A stretch of DNA of 64,000 nucleotides. Origin: Candidatus Sericytochromatia bacterium (GTDB lineage Bacteria > Cyanobacteriota > Sericytochromatia > S15B-MN24 > JAQBPE01). Both the position numbers and the translations under genes were made by a program. Of this stretch, positions 24,218 to 34,816 are shown piece after piece. The DNA is taken from NCBI GenBank assembly GCA_035285325.1, contig JAYKJB010000016.1, forward strand, positions 1 to 64,000. Reading direction: 5' to 3'. Each line of letters opens with the position of its first letter. Positions within the stretch are counted from its first letter, which is position 1. The notes below the pieces were generated by a model. It searched no databases. It was not told where the DNA came from and saw only the letters and a list, made by a program, of their open reading frames with translations.

Positions 24218-24496
24218 TCAGCGCTCATCTTCCACGTCTTGCAGGCGCACTTCACCCAGCGGGCGATAAAGCTCCTGAGCCATCTTGGCGCTCACCGCCC
24301 CTGGGGGAACCATCAGCACCTCCAAGGTCACCAGGCGCTGGCCGAAACGCAGTTCGAGGCGATCGCCCGGTTTGACCTCCACGCTGGCGCGAGCGGGCCG
24401 ACCATTGATGGTGACCCGCCCCTGGTCGCAGATTTCATTGGCGACCGGGCGCCGTTTGATCACCCGCGATACTTTCAACCATTTGTCGAGTCTCAC
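24218..24496 (-). CDS. rqcP: S4-domain protein RqcP (Hsp15/YabO family)
   Basis: 92 aa from a GTG start. RqcP binds obstructed 50S subunits together with RqcH and helps drive C-terminal alanine tailing of stalled nascent chains. The N-terminal S4 RNA-binding domain reads VRLDKWLKVSRVIKRRPVAN then DQGRVTINGRPARASVEVKPGD, which is close to Bacillus subtilis YabO/RqcP over its whole length. GGAGGGAGGG lies just before the GTG; no ATG is available in frame nearby. It shares the strand with eno and pyk. An Hsp15 name would also be acceptable, but the length and C-terminus fit RqcP better. Confidence 0.88.
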   Translation of the reverse strand: MRLDKWLKVSRVIKRRPVANEICDQGRVTINGRPARASVEVKPGDRLELRFGQRLVTLEVLMVPPGAVSAKMAQELYRPLGEVRLQDVEDER

Positions 24497-24529
24497 AAGG
24501 CCCTCCCTCCGACGTCCCGAACGGGCGGG

Positions 24530-24538
24530 ATCATAGCA
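24530..24538 (-). promoter_or_regulatory. Putative extended -10 promoter of rqcP-eno-pyk
   Basis: TGC precedes TATGAT on the minus strand, giving a predicted start near 24523 and a leader of about 27 nt. The -35 region is poor. Confidence 0.45.
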
Positions 24539-24718
24539 CGGCCAAAAGGGGGTCTTCGCCGCGGCGACGCCGGTTCTCCTTGCAAGGGCGCTGGAACGAC
24601 TGGTCCGTCTCGCCGACCTCCCTGCCCAAGGCCGCCTCCCATCCGCCCCCTGCCTTCCGGCAGCGGGCGCTCGAGGTTCCGTGCAGTCATTTCTTCGGCA
24701 TGGCAGACTATTCCGGTC

Positions 24719-25931: not shown

Positions 25932-26882
25932 TCAGCGGGCCCCGCCAGAGCTGGCCGCAAGCGGGATGGCCACCATGCCTGAACGAGCCTCTTCGTATTC
26001 CCTCACGATTTCCTGCACGATGGTGGCACAGGGCTTGACCGCCTCGATCAGGCCCACCGTTTGCCCGGCGCTCCAGACGTCTCGCCAGCGCTTGAGGTCT
26101 GATTCTCCCGCCGCTTGGCTCTCGCGCCATTGCAGCAGACTGTCCCGTAAAAAGTTGGCCGGGTGCCCCGTGACCTCGGGCGTGTATTCGATGTCCTCCG
26201 GGGAGGCGGCGCAGATGGCTTGCTTGAAGGCGGCTTCCACGGGCGCCTCCTCGCTGGCAATGAAGCGAGTCCCGAAATAGCCTGCATCAGCGCCAAGGGC
26301 CAGGGCGCCCGCCAGACTCACGCCATCCGCCAGCCCACCCGCGGCGATCACTGGCAGCTGCGTTTCGCGCTTCAACCAGGGAATCAGCACGAACGGCGTG
26401 ATGACGCCGGCATGCCCTCCCGCCCCCGCAGATACAGCCACCAGGGCGTCCGCACCGGCGGCCTTGGCCTTCTGCGCGTGCCGGACGTTCACCACATCAC
26501 AGAAGACGTGAATGCCGTGACGGTGAGCTTCCTGGATCAAGCGCGAAGGGTCCCCCAAACTGGTGATCAGAACGGGGACTTTTTCCTCCAGGCAGATGCG
26601 CATGTCGTCTTCCAGGCGCGGGTTGTTGAGCAGGATCAGGTTGACCCCGAAGGGCGCGTTGGTTCGCTGTTTGATGGCACGCACCATCTCTCGGAACATG
26701 TCGGAGTTTCGCGCGTTCAAGGCCGGGAACGTGCCAAGCCCACCGGCTTCGCTGACGGCCACCACCATCTCCACGTTGGACACCAGAAACATCGGCGCCG
26801 CGATGATGGGGTAACGAATACCGAGCAACTGCGTGATGGTCGTCTGTCCCAAGTCTGGGTCCTGTTCAGATGTGACCGTCAC
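25932..26882 (-). CDS. Nitronate monooxygenase / FabK-like flavoprotein
   Basis: 316 aa. TIM-barrel FMN oxidoreductase of the NPD family: ITQLLGIRYPIIAAPM at the N-terminus, SEAGGLGTFPAL, the flavin phosphate site (VSAGAGGHAG, VIAAGGLADG, ALGADAGYFGTRFIASEEAP). These oxidise alkyl nitronates or act as enoyl-ACP reductases (FabK); the sequence alone does not choose. I place the start at GTG 26882 because the gene then overlaps the end of the preceding YtxH gene by 17 bp; the longer frame has a low-complexity N-terminus that is antisense-like. It ends about 50 bp from the convergent desulfurase gene. Confidence 0.85.
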   Translation of the reverse strand: MTVTSEQDPDLGQTTITQLLGIRYPIIAAPMFLVSNVEMVVAVSEAGGLGTFPALNARNSDMFREMVRAIKQRTNAPFGVNLILLNNPRLEDDMRICLEEKVPVLITSLGDPSRLIQEAHRHGIHVFCDVVNVRHAQKAKAAGADALVAVSAGAGGHAGVITPFVLIPWLKRETQLPVIAAGGLADGVSLAGALALGADAGYFGTRFIASEEAPVEAAFKQAICAASPEDIEYTPEVTGHPANFLRDSLLQWRESQAAGESDLKRWRDVWSAGQTVGLIEAVKPCATIVQEIVREYEEARSGMVAIPLAASSGGAR

Positions 26883-27231
26883 GGTCGGACGGTGTGGGGG
26901 GGAGAGTGGGTTCTGGCGTCTCGTTTTCGGGGTGGAGGAGGGGAGGGCCAGCACGCCTGGTGGCAAGCCAATCACGCACCCCCTGCGTCAAACGGGGGGA
27001 GAGCTTGACCAGGCGTTCCTGGAGCTCACTTCGGGCAGCCTTGGCCTCCGACACGCCCGGCAACCGTTGCAGTCCTTGGGGAATGCGCCGGCCCGCCTCG
27101 GAGGCACGTCGTCGCAGCAGCCCGCGCACTTCCCTGCCGGCCATCGGGGCGGCCAGCAGGCCGATGACCGTCCCAATCGCGGTCCCCAACAAGACGGAGC
27201 CCGCCAGGTAGGATGCCGGTTTCTTCGACAC
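26866..27231 (-). CDS. YtxH-domain protein (first of two)
   Basis: 121 aa. N-terminal YtxH domain: a Gly-rich TM helix (SYLAGSVLLGTAIGTVIGLLAAP) followed by an amphipathic Arg-rich segment (REVRGLLRRR), then a helical cytoplasmic tail ending Pro-rich. YtxH proteins are general-stress-associated small membrane proteins of unknown function. Start GTG 27231 with GGGAGGG upstream. The stop overlaps the GTG of the nitronate monooxygenase gene, and another YtxH gene lies 29 bp upstream, so the three form one transcription unit. Confidence 0.85.
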   Translation of the reverse strand: MSKKPASYLAGSVLLGTAIGTVIGLLAAPMAGREVRGLLRRRASEAGRRIPQGLQRLPGVSEAKAARSELQERLVKLSPRLTQGVRDWLATRRAGPPLLHPENETPEPTLPPTPSDRDGHI

Positions 27232-27260: not shown

Positions 27261-27596
27261 TCAGGGGGTTTCCTGCTCGATCAATTCCGCGCGCTTGTAC
27301 TCCGCCGCTTTCTTGCCCGCTTCAACGGCTTCGTTGAGCAAGTTGATCCGCTCCTCGATGGCGATGCGGGTTTGATTCAGCAGGGCTTCCGTGTTGCCAC
27401 GCAGGTTTTCCAGCACGTCGCGGGTCCGGTCGCGCACGTCGGTCAGGGTATCGGCCACGCCGTCCGGCGCGGTGTCGCGTGTCCGCGGCGAAAGCATGAC
27501 ACCGAGCAAGAATCCTCCCAGTGCTCCCACTGCAAGGCCACCGAGGACGTCCCAGCCGCTGCTTCCCTGCGGTGCGTCGCGTTCATCCCGAGCCAT
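27261..27596 (-). CDS. YtxH-domain protein (second of two)
   Basis: 111 aa. After a short polar N-terminus (MARDERDAPQGSSG) comes the Gly-rich TM helix LGGLAVGALGGFLLGVMLSP followed by RTRDTAP and a long amphipathic helix (DVRDRTRDVLENLRGNTEALLNQ). This is the classic YtxH layout and is paralogous to its downstream neighbour. Start ATG 27596 has GAGGGGG seven bases upstream; the frame is open further up without a ribosome site. It is first in a likely operon with the other YtxH gene and the flavoprotein, driven by the promoter at 27707-27715. Confidence 0.83.
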   Translation of the reverse strand: MARDERDAPQGSSGWDVLGGLAVGALGGFLLGVMLSPRTRDTAPDGVADTLTDVRDRTRDVLENLRGNTEALLNQTRIAIEERINLLNEAVEAGKKAAEYKRAELIEQETP

Positions 27597-28084
27597 CTGG
27601 AACCCCCTCGTGCAGGGCACGTTGCCGGATCTGTTGAGCCACTGCGACCGGGCTCGCGCCGAGCTTTCGTCGCGCCATGACCGTCGCATTGTGACACGTC
27701 CATGACATTATACCACTGAAGCCATTCGGATACAGCGTCCGACCCCCTCGCGGGACGGCGAGGCCTGTCGTCACTGCTTCCTTCGGATGGCGCGCTGAAC
27801 GGCCTCCCTTGCCTCGTGGTACAATCCCCGGGCGGGGGCTCGTCCCTCGAAAATCGTTTTTTGCCTCGCCAGACCGTGCGACGCGACCTGACCTCGACTT
27901 GCTTTGCTGCCAAGCGCTGTTGACCCCGCGATGTTCAGACGGAATCTTTACTCCCGTCCACTCGGAGTGGTCCTGATGGCGGTATTCAATGGGAGGTGCA
28001 CGCGGTGGTGCGCCCGGCCGGCCTGGCCATCCCGACCCGGCCACGCGTTAGCTGATTGCGCAGGGGTCGAAAGGACCGACCGAA
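27597..28084. other. Divergent intergenic region between YtxH operon and DEAD-box-like gene
   Basis: 488 bp without a confident gene. It contains the extended -10 promoter for the YtxH operon, a 31-codon minus-strand frame (27583-27678, starting MARRKLGASPVAVAQQ) that overlaps the YtxH start, an inverted-repeat-rich stretch at about 27755-27820, a T-run at about 27856-27862 on the plus strand, and a TTGACC at 27920 with only a weak -10 for the plus-strand gene. Confidence 0.4.
27707..27715 (-). promoter_or_regulatory. Extended -10 promoter of the YtxH-YtxH-flavoprotein operon
   Basis: TGG followed by a perfect TATAAT on the minus strand; start near 27700, leader of about 100 nt to ATG 27596. 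The -35 region (CTGTAT) is poor, as expected for an extended -10 promoter. Confidence 0.65.
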
Positions 28085-29713
28085 TTGACGCAGAATTTTG
28101 AAGACTTCGCCCTGCACCCGGCTTTGCTGGCGCGCCTCACCGAACGGGAGATGCCCGCGCCCACTGAAGTCCAGGCCCAGGTGATTCCAACCATGTTGGA
28201 GGGGCGAGACCTGCTGGTTCACGCGGGCCCTCACTCGGGCGAGACCCTGGCCTACGGTCTTCCCTTGCTTTCGATGTACGACCCTCAAGCGCGAGTTCAA
28301 GCGCTGGTGCTGGTGCCGTCGGCCGAACGGGCACAGCGCGTGTATCAGCGCCTGGCTCCGCTGGCGCAGGGGATTCTTAAAATCGCTGCGCTCTATGAGA
28401 CTGGCGGCCAGCAGGAACAGGCCATCCGGCGGGGCGTCGACATCCTGGTCGGCACGCCCTTTCTGATCAAGGATTTGTTTGCGATCAAGCAGCTCGACCT
28501 GAACACGGTGCGTACCCTGGTGCTTGATGGGGCGGACCGCTTGATGACGACCATTCAGCGTCGTGACGTGGAGTACTTGATGGACCGCCTGCCTCGCCTG
28601 GACCAGACGGCCCTCTTTTTCTGGAACATCACGGAAGGGGTGGAGGCCATGGCGCCCCAACTGAGAAATCCGGTCCGCATCCGTGTCGCCGAGCGGCCGG
28701 CCCCGAATGCTCTGCCCGAGCCATCCGCCCCCGCGCCCGCGGCACCATCTGCAGTTGCGCCGGCCCGGACGTCCCGCCGGGGGGCGCCGGAGGTCTCCAC
28801 CAGGCTACCCGAGAAGGCGCCACCCGCTGAGACGACGGCGGAGCCGGTCACGCTGTCCCATCGTTACGCGCGCATCACCACGGAGCAGAGAACCGACTTT
28901 CTGCTTCAGGCGATCGAGCACGACGCACCGGCGAGGGCCCTGATCCTCGCCCGCAACAAGCACGAGGCACGGCGCCTGGTGCAGCGCTTGGAACGCTGGG
29001 GACGGGCGAACGTTGATTCCTTCAATGCCGATACCTCCGCCGCTCAGCGGCAAGCCGCGCTCAAGCGCTTCCTCGCTGGAGAGCTGAAGTTCCTCGTCGT
29101 TCCGGAACCGGCCACGGAAGGCGTCGACCTGGGGGCGCCACCCGCCCTCTACCTCACCGGTGTGGCAGCCAATGTGGCGCTTTACCGCCGATATGCAGAG
29201 GCGGCGGAGGCAGCCAAGCTGAACTTCCAGAGCCTTTCCCTGGTGACCCCGGAAGCGCAAACGGTGTTCAGCGAAAACCAGAAGTCCTTGCCCTTCAGTC
29301 GCCATCCGCTCGACCCGGGACCCGACGAACAGACCATTCCGGCTGTCGCCACGGCCACCGAGGAGGCGACAGGTGCCCCTGGCAAGCGCACCCGGGGCCG
29401 GACCGGCGCGACCAAGCAGCCCAAGGGCGCGGCGACCCTGCTCAATGAATCGATGCGTGAATCCAGGGCCGCCACGGGGCCCCTGGCTCCGTTGCCCCGG
29501 ATGATGACGATGTGGCAGACCTTCAAGGTGGCCCTGCCTTCAGGCCAGCGCCCTACGCGCGACGCTTTTCACGGCTGGCTTTCCACCACCACGGGGATTG
29601 CGCGGAGCGCCTTGCGGTCGATTCAGTTCCATCGCGACCACGCCACCGTCGATGTGGATGAGCGGCAAGTCACGCGCTTCCAGGAAACCCTGAAGGGCCA
29701 TCTGTTGGGCTGA
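28085..29713 (+). CDS. DEAD-box helicase-like protein lacking catalytic motifs
   Basis: 542 aa. Both RecA-like domains and a C-terminal DbpA-type RNA-binding domain (about 475-540, from TFKVALPSGQRPTRDAF) are recognisable, and the Q-motif remains (FALHPALL...MPAPTEVQAQVIP). However, motif I is AGPHSGET instead of AxTGSGKT (Lys lost), motif Ia is VPSAERA for PTREL, motif II is DGAD for DEAD, SAT is replaced by NIT, motif V reads PEPATEGVDL for TDxAARGLD, and HRxGRxGR is missing (RRYAEAAEA). ATP hydrolysis is very unlikely, so this is probably an RNA-binding pseudohelicase, e.g. a ribosome-assembly or RNA-stability factor (inference). A Pro/Ala/Thr insert (about 205-260) joins the domains. Start is TTG 28085; no better start is visible. 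Confidence 0.85.
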   Translation: MTQNFEDFALHPALLARLTEREMPAPTEVQAQVIPTMLEGRDLLVHAGPHSGETLAYGLPLLSMYDPQARVQALVLVPSAERAQRVYQRLAPLAQGILKIAALYETGGQQEQAIRRGVDILVGTPFLIKDLFAIKQLDLNTVRTLVLDGADRLMTTIQRRDVEYLMDRLPRLDQTALFFWNITEGVEAMAPQLRNPVRIRVAERPAPNALPEPSAPAPAAPSAVAPARTSRRGAPEVSTRLPEKAPPAETTAEPVTLSHRYARITTEQRTDFLLQAIEHDAPARALILARNKHEARRLVQRLERWGRANVDSFNADTSAAQRQAALKRFLAGELKFLVVPEPATEGVDLGAPPALYLTGVAANVALYRRYAEAAEAAKLNFQSLSLVTPEAQTVFSENQKSLPFSRHPLDPGPDEQTIPAVATATEEATGAPGKRTRGRTGATKQPKGAATLLNESMRESRAATGPLAPLPRMMTMWQTFKVALPSGQRPTRDAFHGWLSTTTGIARSALRSIQFHRDHATVDVDERQVTRFQETLKGHLLG

Positions 29714-29741: not shown

Positions 29742-29772
29742 GGCCCCGGTCCCTGCGCGAGAGACCGGGGCC
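29742..29772. terminator. GC-rich hairpin between convergent genes
   Basis: GGCCCCGGTC pairs with GACCGGGGCC (10 bp, 11-nt loop), 28 bp after the pseudohelicase stop. No T-run on either strand; likely a bidirectional transcription stop. Confidence 0.6.
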
Positions 29773-29806: not shown

Positions 29807-30112
29807 TCAGGCGACCGGGACGCCCGCTTCGGGAGCAGCTCCCTCAGCGGCTTCCGGGTACAGCGCTCCCTTGTAACGGTCAAGCAGCGCCTTGGCAGCG
29901 GCGATGCCGTTACCTTCTTTCTCGAAGGGCGTCAGACGGACCTCAAGCCACTCGACCTGTTCGACCCGACTCTCGGGGAAGCTCATCATGATCAGGTCTT
30001 CCTGGGCCTGCGGATACGTGATGAGATGAACCCATCCCGGCGTGTGCAGCGAGACGACCCCGCGGCTCCAGCTGTTCTCATTGGCATACTTGACTTGGGC
30101 CACGCCCCACAT
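29807..30112 (-). CDS. Conserved-looking hypothetical protein
   Basis: 101 aa, family not recognised. The first ~60 residues are mixed alpha/beta with several aromatic residues (MWGVAQVKYANENSWSRG, GWVHLITYPQ, WLEVRLTPFEKEG), then a helix (GIAAAKALLDRYKGALY) and an acidic Ala/Pro tail. No signal peptide or TM segment. The start is well supported: GAGGAGG stands eight bases before ATG 30112. Monocistronic, convergent with the pseudohelicase and divergent from trmB. Confidence 0.7.
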   Translation of the reverse strand: MWGVAQVKYANENSWSRGVVSLHTPGWVHLITYPQAQEDLIMMSFPESRVEQVEWLEVRLTPFEKEGNGIAAAKALLDRYKGALYPEAAEGAAPEAGVPVA

Positions 30113-30268
30113 AAGTTTATCCTCCTCATCCTCGCCGGCACATTGCGCGCTTCTCGGGCGCGCGAGTCCCGCGATTCGCGTTCCAGAATACCCGTTCGTC
30201 CTCCAAGGGGCAACGTGAGGCGCGCTCAGGAGACCCGCCATAGGTCTTGAGCATTGTAAAATGGGGGA

Positions 30269-30880
30269 ATGGGAAAAAAGCAGCTCGCCCACGAGTATTT
30301 TCAGGCGCCTCCCTACGACGTCCTGCTGGACCCACGTCGTTTTGCGGAACGTTGGGAACGAACTTTTGGTCGGGTGGCGCCCCTGCACGTTGAAATAGGC
30401 ATGGGGCTCGGACATCATTTGCTGGCGTTCGCGGCGGCCAATCCTGAGATGAACCACCTCGGACTTGAAATCAAGATGCACCGAATTTATTCGGCGCGAC
30501 AGGCGTCTTTACGGGCCGGGATTACGAATCTCAGATTCATCCCCGGAGACGCCCGACGAACGCTGGAAGCCTTGGCGCCTCGTTCCGTCAGCCGTCTCAC
30601 CCTGCTATTTCCTGACCCCTGGCCTCGTCATCCAGACCGCCGCTTGACCTCGCCGGACTACCTGGCGCTGTATGCCGATGTACTCGCCCCTCAGGGGGTG
30701 ATGCATTTTCGGACCGATGACCCTGCCTTGTTCGAATATTCCCTCGCGCAGTTCAGGTCGGCCCGTTTTCTGTTGACCGTGGCCGTGCCCCGAGAACGAG
30801 TCCTGACTGCCTTCGAACGGCGCTGGTTGGGCGAAGGAAAGGCCATTTTCGGGGTGGATGCCCGCCTGCCTTCGATCTGA
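30269..30880 (+). CDS. trmB: tRNA (guanine-N7-)-methyltransferase TrmB
   Basis: 203 aa. SAM-dependent enzyme that makes m7G46 in the tRNA variable loop. The SAM site is HVEIGMGLGHHLLAFA; the family signature is LLFPDPWPRHPDRRL, the segment that binds tRNA and catalyses transfer, followed by FRTDDPALFEYSL. Length is standard for the short bacterial form. A TAAAAT-like -10 lies about 15 bp before the start codon. Transcribed alone. Confidence 0.95.
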   Translation: MGKKQLAHEYFQAPPYDVLLDPRRFAERWERTFGRVAPLHVEIGMGLGHHLLAFAAANPEMNHLGLEIKMHRIYSARQASLRAGITNLRFIPGDARRTLEALAPRSVSRLTLLFPDPWPRHPDRRLTSPDYLALYADVLAPQGVMHFRTDDPALFEYSLAQFRSARFLLTVAVPRERVLTAFERRWLGEGKAIFGVDARLPSI

Positions 30881-31014
30881 AGGGGCCGGGCCAGCTTCCC
30901 GCTGTAATCCATGACCGCCGTCACAGGCAGCAGTTGGCGGGCTGATTATGATGTCGAGATAGCAGCCTGATGTATCAGATTCGCTGCGCACACCCGTCAG
31001 ACCGGGGAGACGTG

Positions 31015-32346
31015 ATGCAGTCCGCGAAAAAACGCGAGAAACAGCCGGAGCATGCCCTGAGGGGACGCCCACAGCGTCCCGAATCAGCGCTCCTGCCTGC
31101 GCCGATTTCCTCGATCACGCTGGAGCCGCCTCACCCCAAGGAGGTTCGCTACAAGCTCCAGTTCGTATCGGCTCAGTCTTACAAGAAGGCCGTGACCTTG
31201 GCCGACCGCTACTACTGGCAGGCTCAGATGGCGGTGGAGCGGCGGGAAGCCAGCCTCGCGAAGTTCGACAAGCAGGCGCAACTCGACCAAGCTGAAACCC
31301 AGGCCACTTATCACCGCCAGGTGGCAGCTGCTCAGCAGCGATACCGCGCCTTCATCGAGCAGGCGCATGCACGCCAACGTCAGGCCCTGCACCAGGCGCG
31401 TCAGCGGGCCCGGCAGGCTGAGGATGTCTACAAGGCTGTGCTGGAAAATGTTCCAGGTTATGGAGAGTTGCAGTTGAAGGCGCTTGCGCTGGCGGATGCC
31501 CGTGCTCTCACGTCTTCGTTCATTCAGAGTTATCGCAGCTCGCTCGGTCCGGATGGACTGGGAGACCTCTTCTCCTTCCTGCGCGCTTTCGATCGGGTGC
31601 TCGACCACGCCCGCGACCGTCAGATGGTGGTGCCGGTTCAGTTTGCCGAAGCCGTTTTGAAGGGGATTCTGCAGCGTCAGTTGCGGCATCTCATCTCGAA
31701 CTCCGGCAAGGAAGTGGATGCGCGCTCCGAGGGCGAGCGGCTCAAGCAGGCGACTCAGACTCGCCTGTCAGCCATTTCGGAGTTTCTGAGCGAAGACACA
31801 CGGGATGCGACGCCACCTTCCATTCGGGCGATTTTCTTTGCCGTGGGTGACTGGTTGGCCAAATCGCCTGGAACACCTTTTGACCTGGCGCTGGACCGCT
31901 TGAAACTTGACGTGGAAGCCACGGCGCGGCGGGAGCAACGGAGCCTGGAAGACCAGATGAAGGTTGCCATTCAGACGTGTCCCCAAGCTCAACAGATTCG
32001 TCCCGCCGCCGAGGCCTACCAGGCCGCCCAGCGCATCATGTCCAGTTCCGAACAGGCCGCCCGCAACGTGTTGCAGAGCGAACTCGTGCGGATTGAAAGC
32101 GCCCTTGAACGGGAACTTCAGATGGCCGAGGCGATGGTGCTGGGTATGTCTCAGAAGCAGACGACCCGCATCGAGCAGGCCAAACGCGACATCGCCAAGG
32201 CCAAAAAGCTGGTTCGTCGCTGGCACCTGGAAATGACCCGGATGCAGGAAGTTGGGACCTTTCAGCGGTTGCGCTGGCGCTTCCTCGAGGGATTCCATCT
32301 CGAAGAATTCTGGGACGAACTCCAGCATCGTCAAGGCTCGCGCTGA
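31015..32346 (+). CDS. Unknown highly helical, basic coiled-coil protein
   Basis: 443 aa, no family recognised. A basic, Pro-rich N-terminus (residues 1-40) is followed by a long charged helix rich in Gln, Arg and Ala (about 60-150, e.g. RQALHQARQRARQAED), a more globular middle (about 155-300) and another long helical stretch (about 310-430, with IEQAKRDIAKAKKLVRRWHLEM). No signal peptide or TM segment, so cytoplasmic. It could be a structural or nucleic-acid-associated protein. Start ATG 31015 has GGGGAG five bases upstream; a -10-like TATGAT is at 30947-30952. Monocistronic. Confidence 0.75.
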   Translation: MQSAKKREKQPEHALRGRPQRPESALLPAPISSITLEPPHPKEVRYKLQFVSAQSYKKAVTLADRYYWQAQMAVERREASLAKFDKQAQLDQAETQATYHRQVAAAQQRYRAFIEQAHARQRQALHQARQRARQAEDVYKAVLENVPGYGELQLKALALADARALTSSFIQSYRSSLGPDGLGDLFSFLRAFDRVLDHARDRQMVVPVQFAEAVLKGILQRQLRHLISNSGKEVDARSEGERLKQATQTRLSAISEFLSEDTRDATPPSIRAIFFAVGDWLAKSPGTPFDLALDRLKLDVEATARREQRSLEDQMKVAIQTCPQAQQIRPAAEAYQAAQRIMSSSEQAARNVLQSELVRIESALERELQMAEAMVLGMSQKQTTRIEQAKRDIAKAKKLVRRWHLEMTRMQEVGTFQRLRWRFLEGFHLEEFWDELQHRQGSR

Positions 32347-34419: not shown

Positions 34420-34816
34420 GGGGATGTCACGGTTTCGACCGGGAGTCGACGGTGGTGGTTGCGTGTCGTGGATGCCGACGTTACACGTTAAACCAGCGGC
34501 AAACCAACAAGTGCCAAGAAGCCTACCTTCTTGACCGCTGTTACCCCCAAGTCCACCCGGGCCGCCGCAATCGCGGCCTAGGTTTGACCTCAGGATAACA
34601 GACTCTGATAAGGCCGCACCGGCCGGCCTTATCGGCAAATCAGTCGGTTGCTCCCGTCAGATGCGTCTGCTGTCTGCGGGCTAAGATTCAGGAGACTCGC
34701 GTCAGCTTCCTTGCGCCGAGGAGAGGTGGCTGGCGTTAACCAATTCCCAGGCTACACACGTAGACGCTGCCATGGTTTGCTTTCGGGACGCGAGTTCAAT
34801 TCTCGCCATCTCCACC
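34420..34816 (+). ncRNA. ssrA: Transfer-messenger RNA (tmRNA, SsrA)
   Basis: Rescues stalled ribosomes and tags the nascent chain for proteolysis. The 5' end GGGGATG pairs with CATCTCC (34807-34813) as the acceptor stem, followed by discriminator A and CC; the final A of CCA is not encoded. GTTTCGAC-like D-arm region and a GAGTTCAATTCTC T-arm are typical. By comparison with the Bacillus gene (GGCAAA after a TAAA-rich stretch) the resume codon is GGC at 34498. The tag frame runs 27 codons to TAG 34579-34581: it begins GKPTSAKKPTF and ends RAAAIAA, so it is long, with Ile in the usual ALAA end. Pseudoknot-like inverted repeats follow the tag (34610-34632). Confidence 0.92.

Follow-up and report, generated by a model that had tools for sequence, protein, structure and literature searches.

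The locus and its surroundings

The stretch of DNA analysed here, referred to as the window, comprises 64,000 nucleotides. Its forward strand contains a gene for a DEAD-box-like protein of 542 residues (Table 1). The first-pass annotation had described the reading frame as intact, and indeed no internal stop codon was found. A TTG start behind an AGGA-type ribosome-binding site also occurs in most intact members of the clade to which the gene belongs. A tblastn extension 5' of this start runs across stop codons and was rejected as an alignment artefact. The encoded protein was recognized by the Pfam models DEAD (E = 1.9e-23) and Helicase_C (E = 2.4e-6). The top NCBIfam model was DbpA, far under its cut-off, and the sequence matches in the PDB were DEAD-box proteins throughout.

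No Rfam elements were found in or around the gene. The locus contains no co-transcribed partner, and the neighbouring genes lie on the opposite strand. The hairpin that follows the gene was not flagged by a terminator scan; it is a possible transcript end.

Several other features of the window deserve mention. A tmRNA gene (34420-34816, +) encodes an unusually long predicted tag peptide of 22 residues, AKKPTFLTAVTPKSTRAAAIAA. A small S4-domain RNA-binding protein (24218-24583, -) resembles Hsp15/RqcP in length and domain, and a TrmB-like methyltransferase (30269-30880) is encoded in the same neighbourhood. The frame at 30970-32346 (+) codes for a Gln/Ala/Arg-rich protein of 458 residues, which has no Pfam match and is probably a coiled coil.

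Table 1. Features of the locus in window coordinates. Motif changes are given as canonical sequence -> sequence in the window protein.
Feature	Position	Strand	Evidence and remarks
Nitronate monooxygenase-like gene	25932..26975	-	Syntenic in G001, 67% identity
YtxH-like gene	26866..27231	-	Syntenic in G001; just under Pfam cut-off
Second YtxH-like gene	27261..27689	-	Syntenic in G001
Probable ribosome-binding site AAAGGA, 9 nt 5' of TTG	28070..28075	+	Sequence; same arrangement in relatives
Putative pseudohelicase gene, 542 aa, TTG start	28085..29713	+	Frame call, Pfam; start type common in relatives
RecA1-like domain, residues 4-204, Q motif kept	28094..28696	+	Pfam DEAD; AlphaFold2 pLDDT mostly about 85-96
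Motif I degenerate, AxTGSGKT -> AGPHSGET (Lys53 -> Glu)	28223..28246	+	Alignment
Motif Ia degenerate, PTRELA -> PSAERA	28316..28333	+	Alignment
Motif Ib degenerate, TPGR -> TPFL	28454..28465	+	Alignment
Motif II degenerate, DEAD -> DGAD	28526..28537	+	Alignment
Motif III lost, WNIT in SAT region (residues 179-183 FWNIT)	28622..28633	+	Alignment
Pro/Ala-rich inter-RecA linker, about 52 aa, predicted disordered	28697..28852	+	Alignment, AlphaFold2
RecA2-like domain, residues 257-410	28853..29314	+	Pfam Helicase_C; AlphaFold2 pLDDT about 82-94 for most
Motif V degenerate, ARGLD -> TEGVD	29114..29128	+	Alignment
Motif VI site, HRxGRTGR -> RRYAEAAE (YRRYAEAA at coordinates), both arginine-finger positions lost	29183..29206	+	Alignment
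TGPLAPLPRM linker motif	29474..29503	+	Protein and codon alignment
DbpA-type RNA-binding domain, beta-alpha-beta-beta-alpha, residues 477-536	29513..29692	+	Pfam, AlphaFold2, Foldseek
GC-rich hairpin directly 3' of the gene, without T run	29742..29772	+	z -1.6, weak
Family-private gene	29807..30481	-	No Pfam match; syntenic in G001, where it lies about 4 kb farther away

Loss of the catalytic and RNA-clamp motifs

The protein was aligned with 19-20 intact DEAD-box relatives from the same class. The losses claimed in the first-pass annotation, namely that of the Lys in motif I (GET), of DEAD in motif II, of SAT in motif III (NIT) and of motif VI, were all recovered in the alignment. A correction concerns motif II, in which the first Asp is still present. 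The earlier list was incomplete, since the RNA-clamp motifs Ia, Ib, IV and V are lost too; in motif IV, F(T) is replaced by L(A), which removes the Phe. The Q motif is retained as stated earlier (F5, P26, T27, Q30), and so are Thr54 and the motif II residues Asp148 and Asp151. As motifs I-VI including Ia and Ib are eroded, the sequence indicates that neither the ATP site nor the RNA clamp is still intact.

For comparison, a survey covered 82 DEAD-box frames, taken from members of the class and from cyanobacterial relatives. The Lys, the DE and both motif VI arginines were intact in 78 of them. Lys and Glu were both missing in only two, the window gene and its orthologue L037 described below. 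The motif losses are therefore not a matter of chance. We infer that the protein would have neither ATPase nor unwinding activity.

A degenerate orthologue at the same position

The only other genome of the same family that was compared with the genome of the window (G000) is G001. It contains L037 as a positional orthologue, with the same neighbours in the same order: an aminotransferase class V gene, a nitronate monooxygenase gene, two YtxH-like genes, the pseudohelicase gene and then the family-private gene. The latter occurs only in the two genomes of the family among 18 of the class, with 72% identity over about 96 residues; translation may actually begin at the internal Met of MWGVAQ. 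The region upstream of the pseudohelicase gene is not conserved as DNA in comparison with L037.

The motifs of L037 are likewise degenerate in I (GSGQT), Ia (TTNRDR), II (DNAE), III (TEA), IV and V (DAEIE). Motif VI is absent and not alignable, and the TPGR of motif Ib is kept. The replacements mostly differ between the two genes: the catalytic Lys became Glu in the window protein and Gln in L037, and motif II reads DGAD and DNAE, respectively. A comparison of orthologues had been proposed as a check of the first-pass annotation; because the replacements in L037 are different ones, there is no conserved alternative catalytic residue. Common to both proteins are Thr49Pro (motif I), Leu82Arg (Ia), Gln85Arg and Ala339Val. 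In total, the pair has 23 private residues that none of eight canonical clade members has; the number for other pairs is 0-17, typically about 4. These residues, among them Thr49Pro and Leu82Arg, point to a loss of catalysis before the split of the two genera.

Searches of genome and viral contig collections yielded no close relatives of the window protein; the sole match in a genome contig was a remote DEAD-box gene from Flavobacteriales. The pseudohelicase is carried by two genomes only, both of them metagenome-style drafts.

Domain architecture and predicted structure

An AlphaFold2 model was calculated from an alignment of 18 DEAD-box relatives, all of which are active. The mean pLDDT was 78.5 and the pTM 0.47, with values mostly between 82 and 96 for RecA1, RecA2 and the tail. 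Because the two linkers are disordered, the relative placement of the domains is not fixed by the model. The prediction may lean to the DEAD-box fold, given that the input contained active relatives only. The top solved structure found by Foldseek was E. coli DbpA (7pli, E = 4e-28), and the match extends over the entire length, tail included. The two RecA domains proposed earlier are thus supported by Pfam, AlphaFold2 and Foldseek alike, and structure prediction, which had been suggested as a check, yielded a confident fold of both domains and of the tail, with DbpA as the closest structure.

The claim of a DbpA-type tail needs some qualification: the tail is probably a divergent domain of this type, which the structural match to DbpA supports. 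The Pfam model PF03880 matched with E = 0.01 in the whole protein and E = 3.5e-4 in the isolated tail, and its 21 bits lie under the cut-off of 25.6. The tail is modelled as a beta-alpha-beta-beta-alpha unit, i.e. as a domain of the DbpA type that lacks the final RRM strand. PF03880 matches four of the five clade tails. A PDB sequence search with a profile of the tail gave no meaningful match.

The linkers distinguish the protein from its canonical relatives. The inter-RecA linker has about 52 residues compared to about 15 in these relatives, and the motif TGPLAPLPRM, which is identical in L037 at 10 of 10 positions, is missing from them. The RecA domains have lost their net positive charge; for RecA1 it is -3, compared to +2 to +3 in the canonical relatives. 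The tail of the window protein is basic (pI 10.7), that of L037 weakly basic (pI 7.9).

Phylogeny and constraint

In the phylogenetic tree, the window gene pairs with L037 (support 93/96). Both branches are long, with lengths of 1.8 and 1.0, whereas active orthologues of these two genomes have about 0.3, so that tree support alone would not suffice; the pairing is settled by synteny. G001 also possesses an intact relative from the clade, L038. In G000, whose assembly is 98.6% complete, no active copy of the clade was found. The three further intact DEAD-box helicases of this genome, among them a DeaD-type protein that carries a DbpA domain, all fall outside the clade. A simple model in which the protein helps its own paralogue therefore does not fit G000. 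Both genomes of family f3 contain a second, shorter canonical paralogue without an RNA-binding tail (L041:5091-6407 and L043:5046-6224). The clade has therefore undergone more than one duplication in this order. What looked like an isolated tail domain in G007 (L089) was rejected as such: it sits at the end of a contig and is probably a 3' fragment of the canonical gene L046.

The two pseudohelicases are 47% identical in the RNA-binding domain, 46% in RecA1 and 21% in RecA2. For the active DeaD pair from the same two genomes (L050, L056), the corresponding values are 44%, 60% and 78%. Judging from these identities, the tail evolves at a normal rate and the constraint on RecA2 is all but gone. 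Canonical clade pairs show stronger conservation of RecA2 than of the tail; the inverted pattern of the pseudohelicases has a z of 5.0-5.5 if residues are taken as independent. RecA2 may be mere ballast.

In both RecA1 and the tail, divergence at codon positions 1 and 2 is much lower than expected. In RecA1 these positions differ at 0.42 and 0.30, compared to about 0.70-0.74 for a shuffled pairing; position 3 is saturated. A simple neutral model at this protein divergence predicts about 3-7 stop codons per gene, whereas none was observed in either gene. Divergence at codon position 3 is 0.44 in the tail versus 0.65 in RecA1. The lower value gave a hint of constraint on the tail at the nucleotide level, but codon identity at shared residues was only mildly higher (17/34 versus 35/91).

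A protein probably retained without its motor

The most plausible explanation, to which we assign a probability of roughly 0.7, is a pseudohelicase derived from a DbpA-like enzyme that acts as an ATP-independent scaffold or adaptor bound to RNA or the ribosome. Sequence and model together make the identity as a pseudohelicase well supported, because conserved alternative catalytic residues are missing, the syntenic genes are intact, the tail is constrained and the predicted fold is confidently DbpA-like. Binding of RNA by the protein is likely. The gene looks like one that was kept and repurposed rather than broken, because a related bacterium has a matching dead copy at the corresponding position.

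Slow decay of an inactivated duplicate, which would drift towards a pseudogene and have no present function, is unlikely, even though the long branches, the fallen identity of RecA2 and the mostly unlike catalytic replacements in the two lineages are in its favour. It does not fit the complete lack of stop codons and frameshifts in both lineages, the normal rate of the tail, the conserved private linker motif, the confidently predicted fold or the retention of the start and the ribosome-binding site. An assembly or binning artefact, i.e. a chimeric or error-ridden contig, is hardly credible: both genomes are fragmented drafts of the metagenome-bin type, but locus, gene order and degenerate state are common to two separate assemblies, and the changes are missense without indels.

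Two further possibilities concern the activity of a functional protein. It could still be an NTPase with rearranged catalytic residues, and the presence of Asp148, Asp151, Thr54 and the Q motif would allow for this; the loss of Lys53, Glu149 and the motif VI arginines, together with the differing replacements in the orthologue, makes such an enzyme very improbable. The protein could also inhibit or dimerize with another DEAD-box helicase via its RecA body rather than bind RNA. Candidate partners exist among the three intact DEAD-box helicases of the genome, including the DeaD type with its DbpA domain, and the regulation of active enzymes by dead paralogues is a known principle (PMC5201418). 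However, it is the tail that is under normal constraint and the RecA body that is relaxed, and a co-transcribed partner is missing from a locus with neighbours on the other strand. We consider this role improbable, if less so than residual catalysis.

The scaffold or adaptor could have originated as follows. An order-specific DbpA-like gene would have been duplicated in an ancestor of the family, and both of the resulting genes are still present in G001. According to the alignment, one of them has lost motifs I, II and VI, needed to bind and hydrolyse ATP, as well as the RNA-clamp motifs Ia, Ib, IV and V. The dead copy would have been retained with a predicted foldable body of two RecA domains, a normally constrained tail and the new conserved motif TGPLAPLPRM. 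The tail may dock on structured RNA, most simply the region of hairpin 92 of 23S rRNA, and the inert RecA body and the linker would then act independently of ATP, as a placeholder or adaptor during maturation of the large subunit. Possibly, TGPLAPLPRM recruits another factor. Utp25 is a precedent for a role without catalysis, in the yeast SSU processome. A bolder proposal is that the pseudohelicase replaced the active DbpA-like helicase in its genome and now helps assembly, or holds a place, at the nascent peptidyl-transferase region of the large ribosomal subunit without using ATP, as a bacterial counterpart in kind to yeast Utp25. We regard this as a tentative and rather doubtful extension.

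DEAD-box proteins are viewed as machines driven by ATP. A dead motor linked to a normally evolving tail would be a natural experiment that parts DbpA-type targeting and scaffolding from the role of the motor. A dominant negative mutant of DbpA blocks 50S assembly in E. coli, according to a paper cited in PMC7973409. This raises the question of how a natural dead version avoids toxicity; loss of the RNA clamp is a ready hypothesis.

Comparison with known systems

The first-pass annotation called proteins of this kind sparsely documented for bacteria, which agrees with our literature search. Among open-licence papers, in which absence is no proof, one bacterial pseudohelicase was found, the DNA enzyme PriA, but none of the DEAD-box type from bacteria. 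The selection criteria of surveys can exclude such genes from the outset; a survey of cyanobacterial DEAD-box proteins, for example, retained only sequences with all 12 motifs (PMC8190605).

The closest relatives in sequence are the order-specific canonical helicases L038, L040, L042, L044 and L046, with about 40% identity in RecA1. L038, L042 and L044 have the same tail domain, and the TTG start is similar in the clade. In contrast to the window protein, all five have intact motifs, and they occupy a different locus in the loci compared.

DbpA from E. coli and YxiN from B. subtilis share the order RecA1-RecA2-DbpA-type domain. DbpA is the best fold match in the PDB over the full length, and the tails are probably related, the Pfam score lying under the cut-off. 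The RRM of DbpA recognises hairpin 92 of 23S rRNA (PMC7973409). Unlike these enzymes, the window protein lacks the Lys of motif I, the Glu of motif II, SAT, the motif VI arginines and the RNA-clamp motifs. It further differs by the long inter-RecA linker, by TGPLAPLPRM and by a tail modelled without the last strand.

PriA from D. radiodurans is likewise a bacterial helicase homologue with Walker motifs that are degenerate throughout the lineage; its ATPase activity is absent and DNA binding is kept (PMC4504706). However, it is a replication-restart helicase acting on DNA and not a DEAD-box RNA helicase.

Utp25 (Def) has a DEAD-box fold from which the catalytic motifs are gone, and this component of the yeast SSU processome was termed the first fully validated pseudohelicase (PMC9539457). 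The Pfam models for UTP25 and CMS1 did not match the window protein at E values up to 1. In contrast to the latter, Utp25 is eukaryotic, heavily diverged, equipped with an N-terminal accessory region and devoid of a DbpA-type tail (PMC9539457). The bacterial gene probably arose separately from Utp25.
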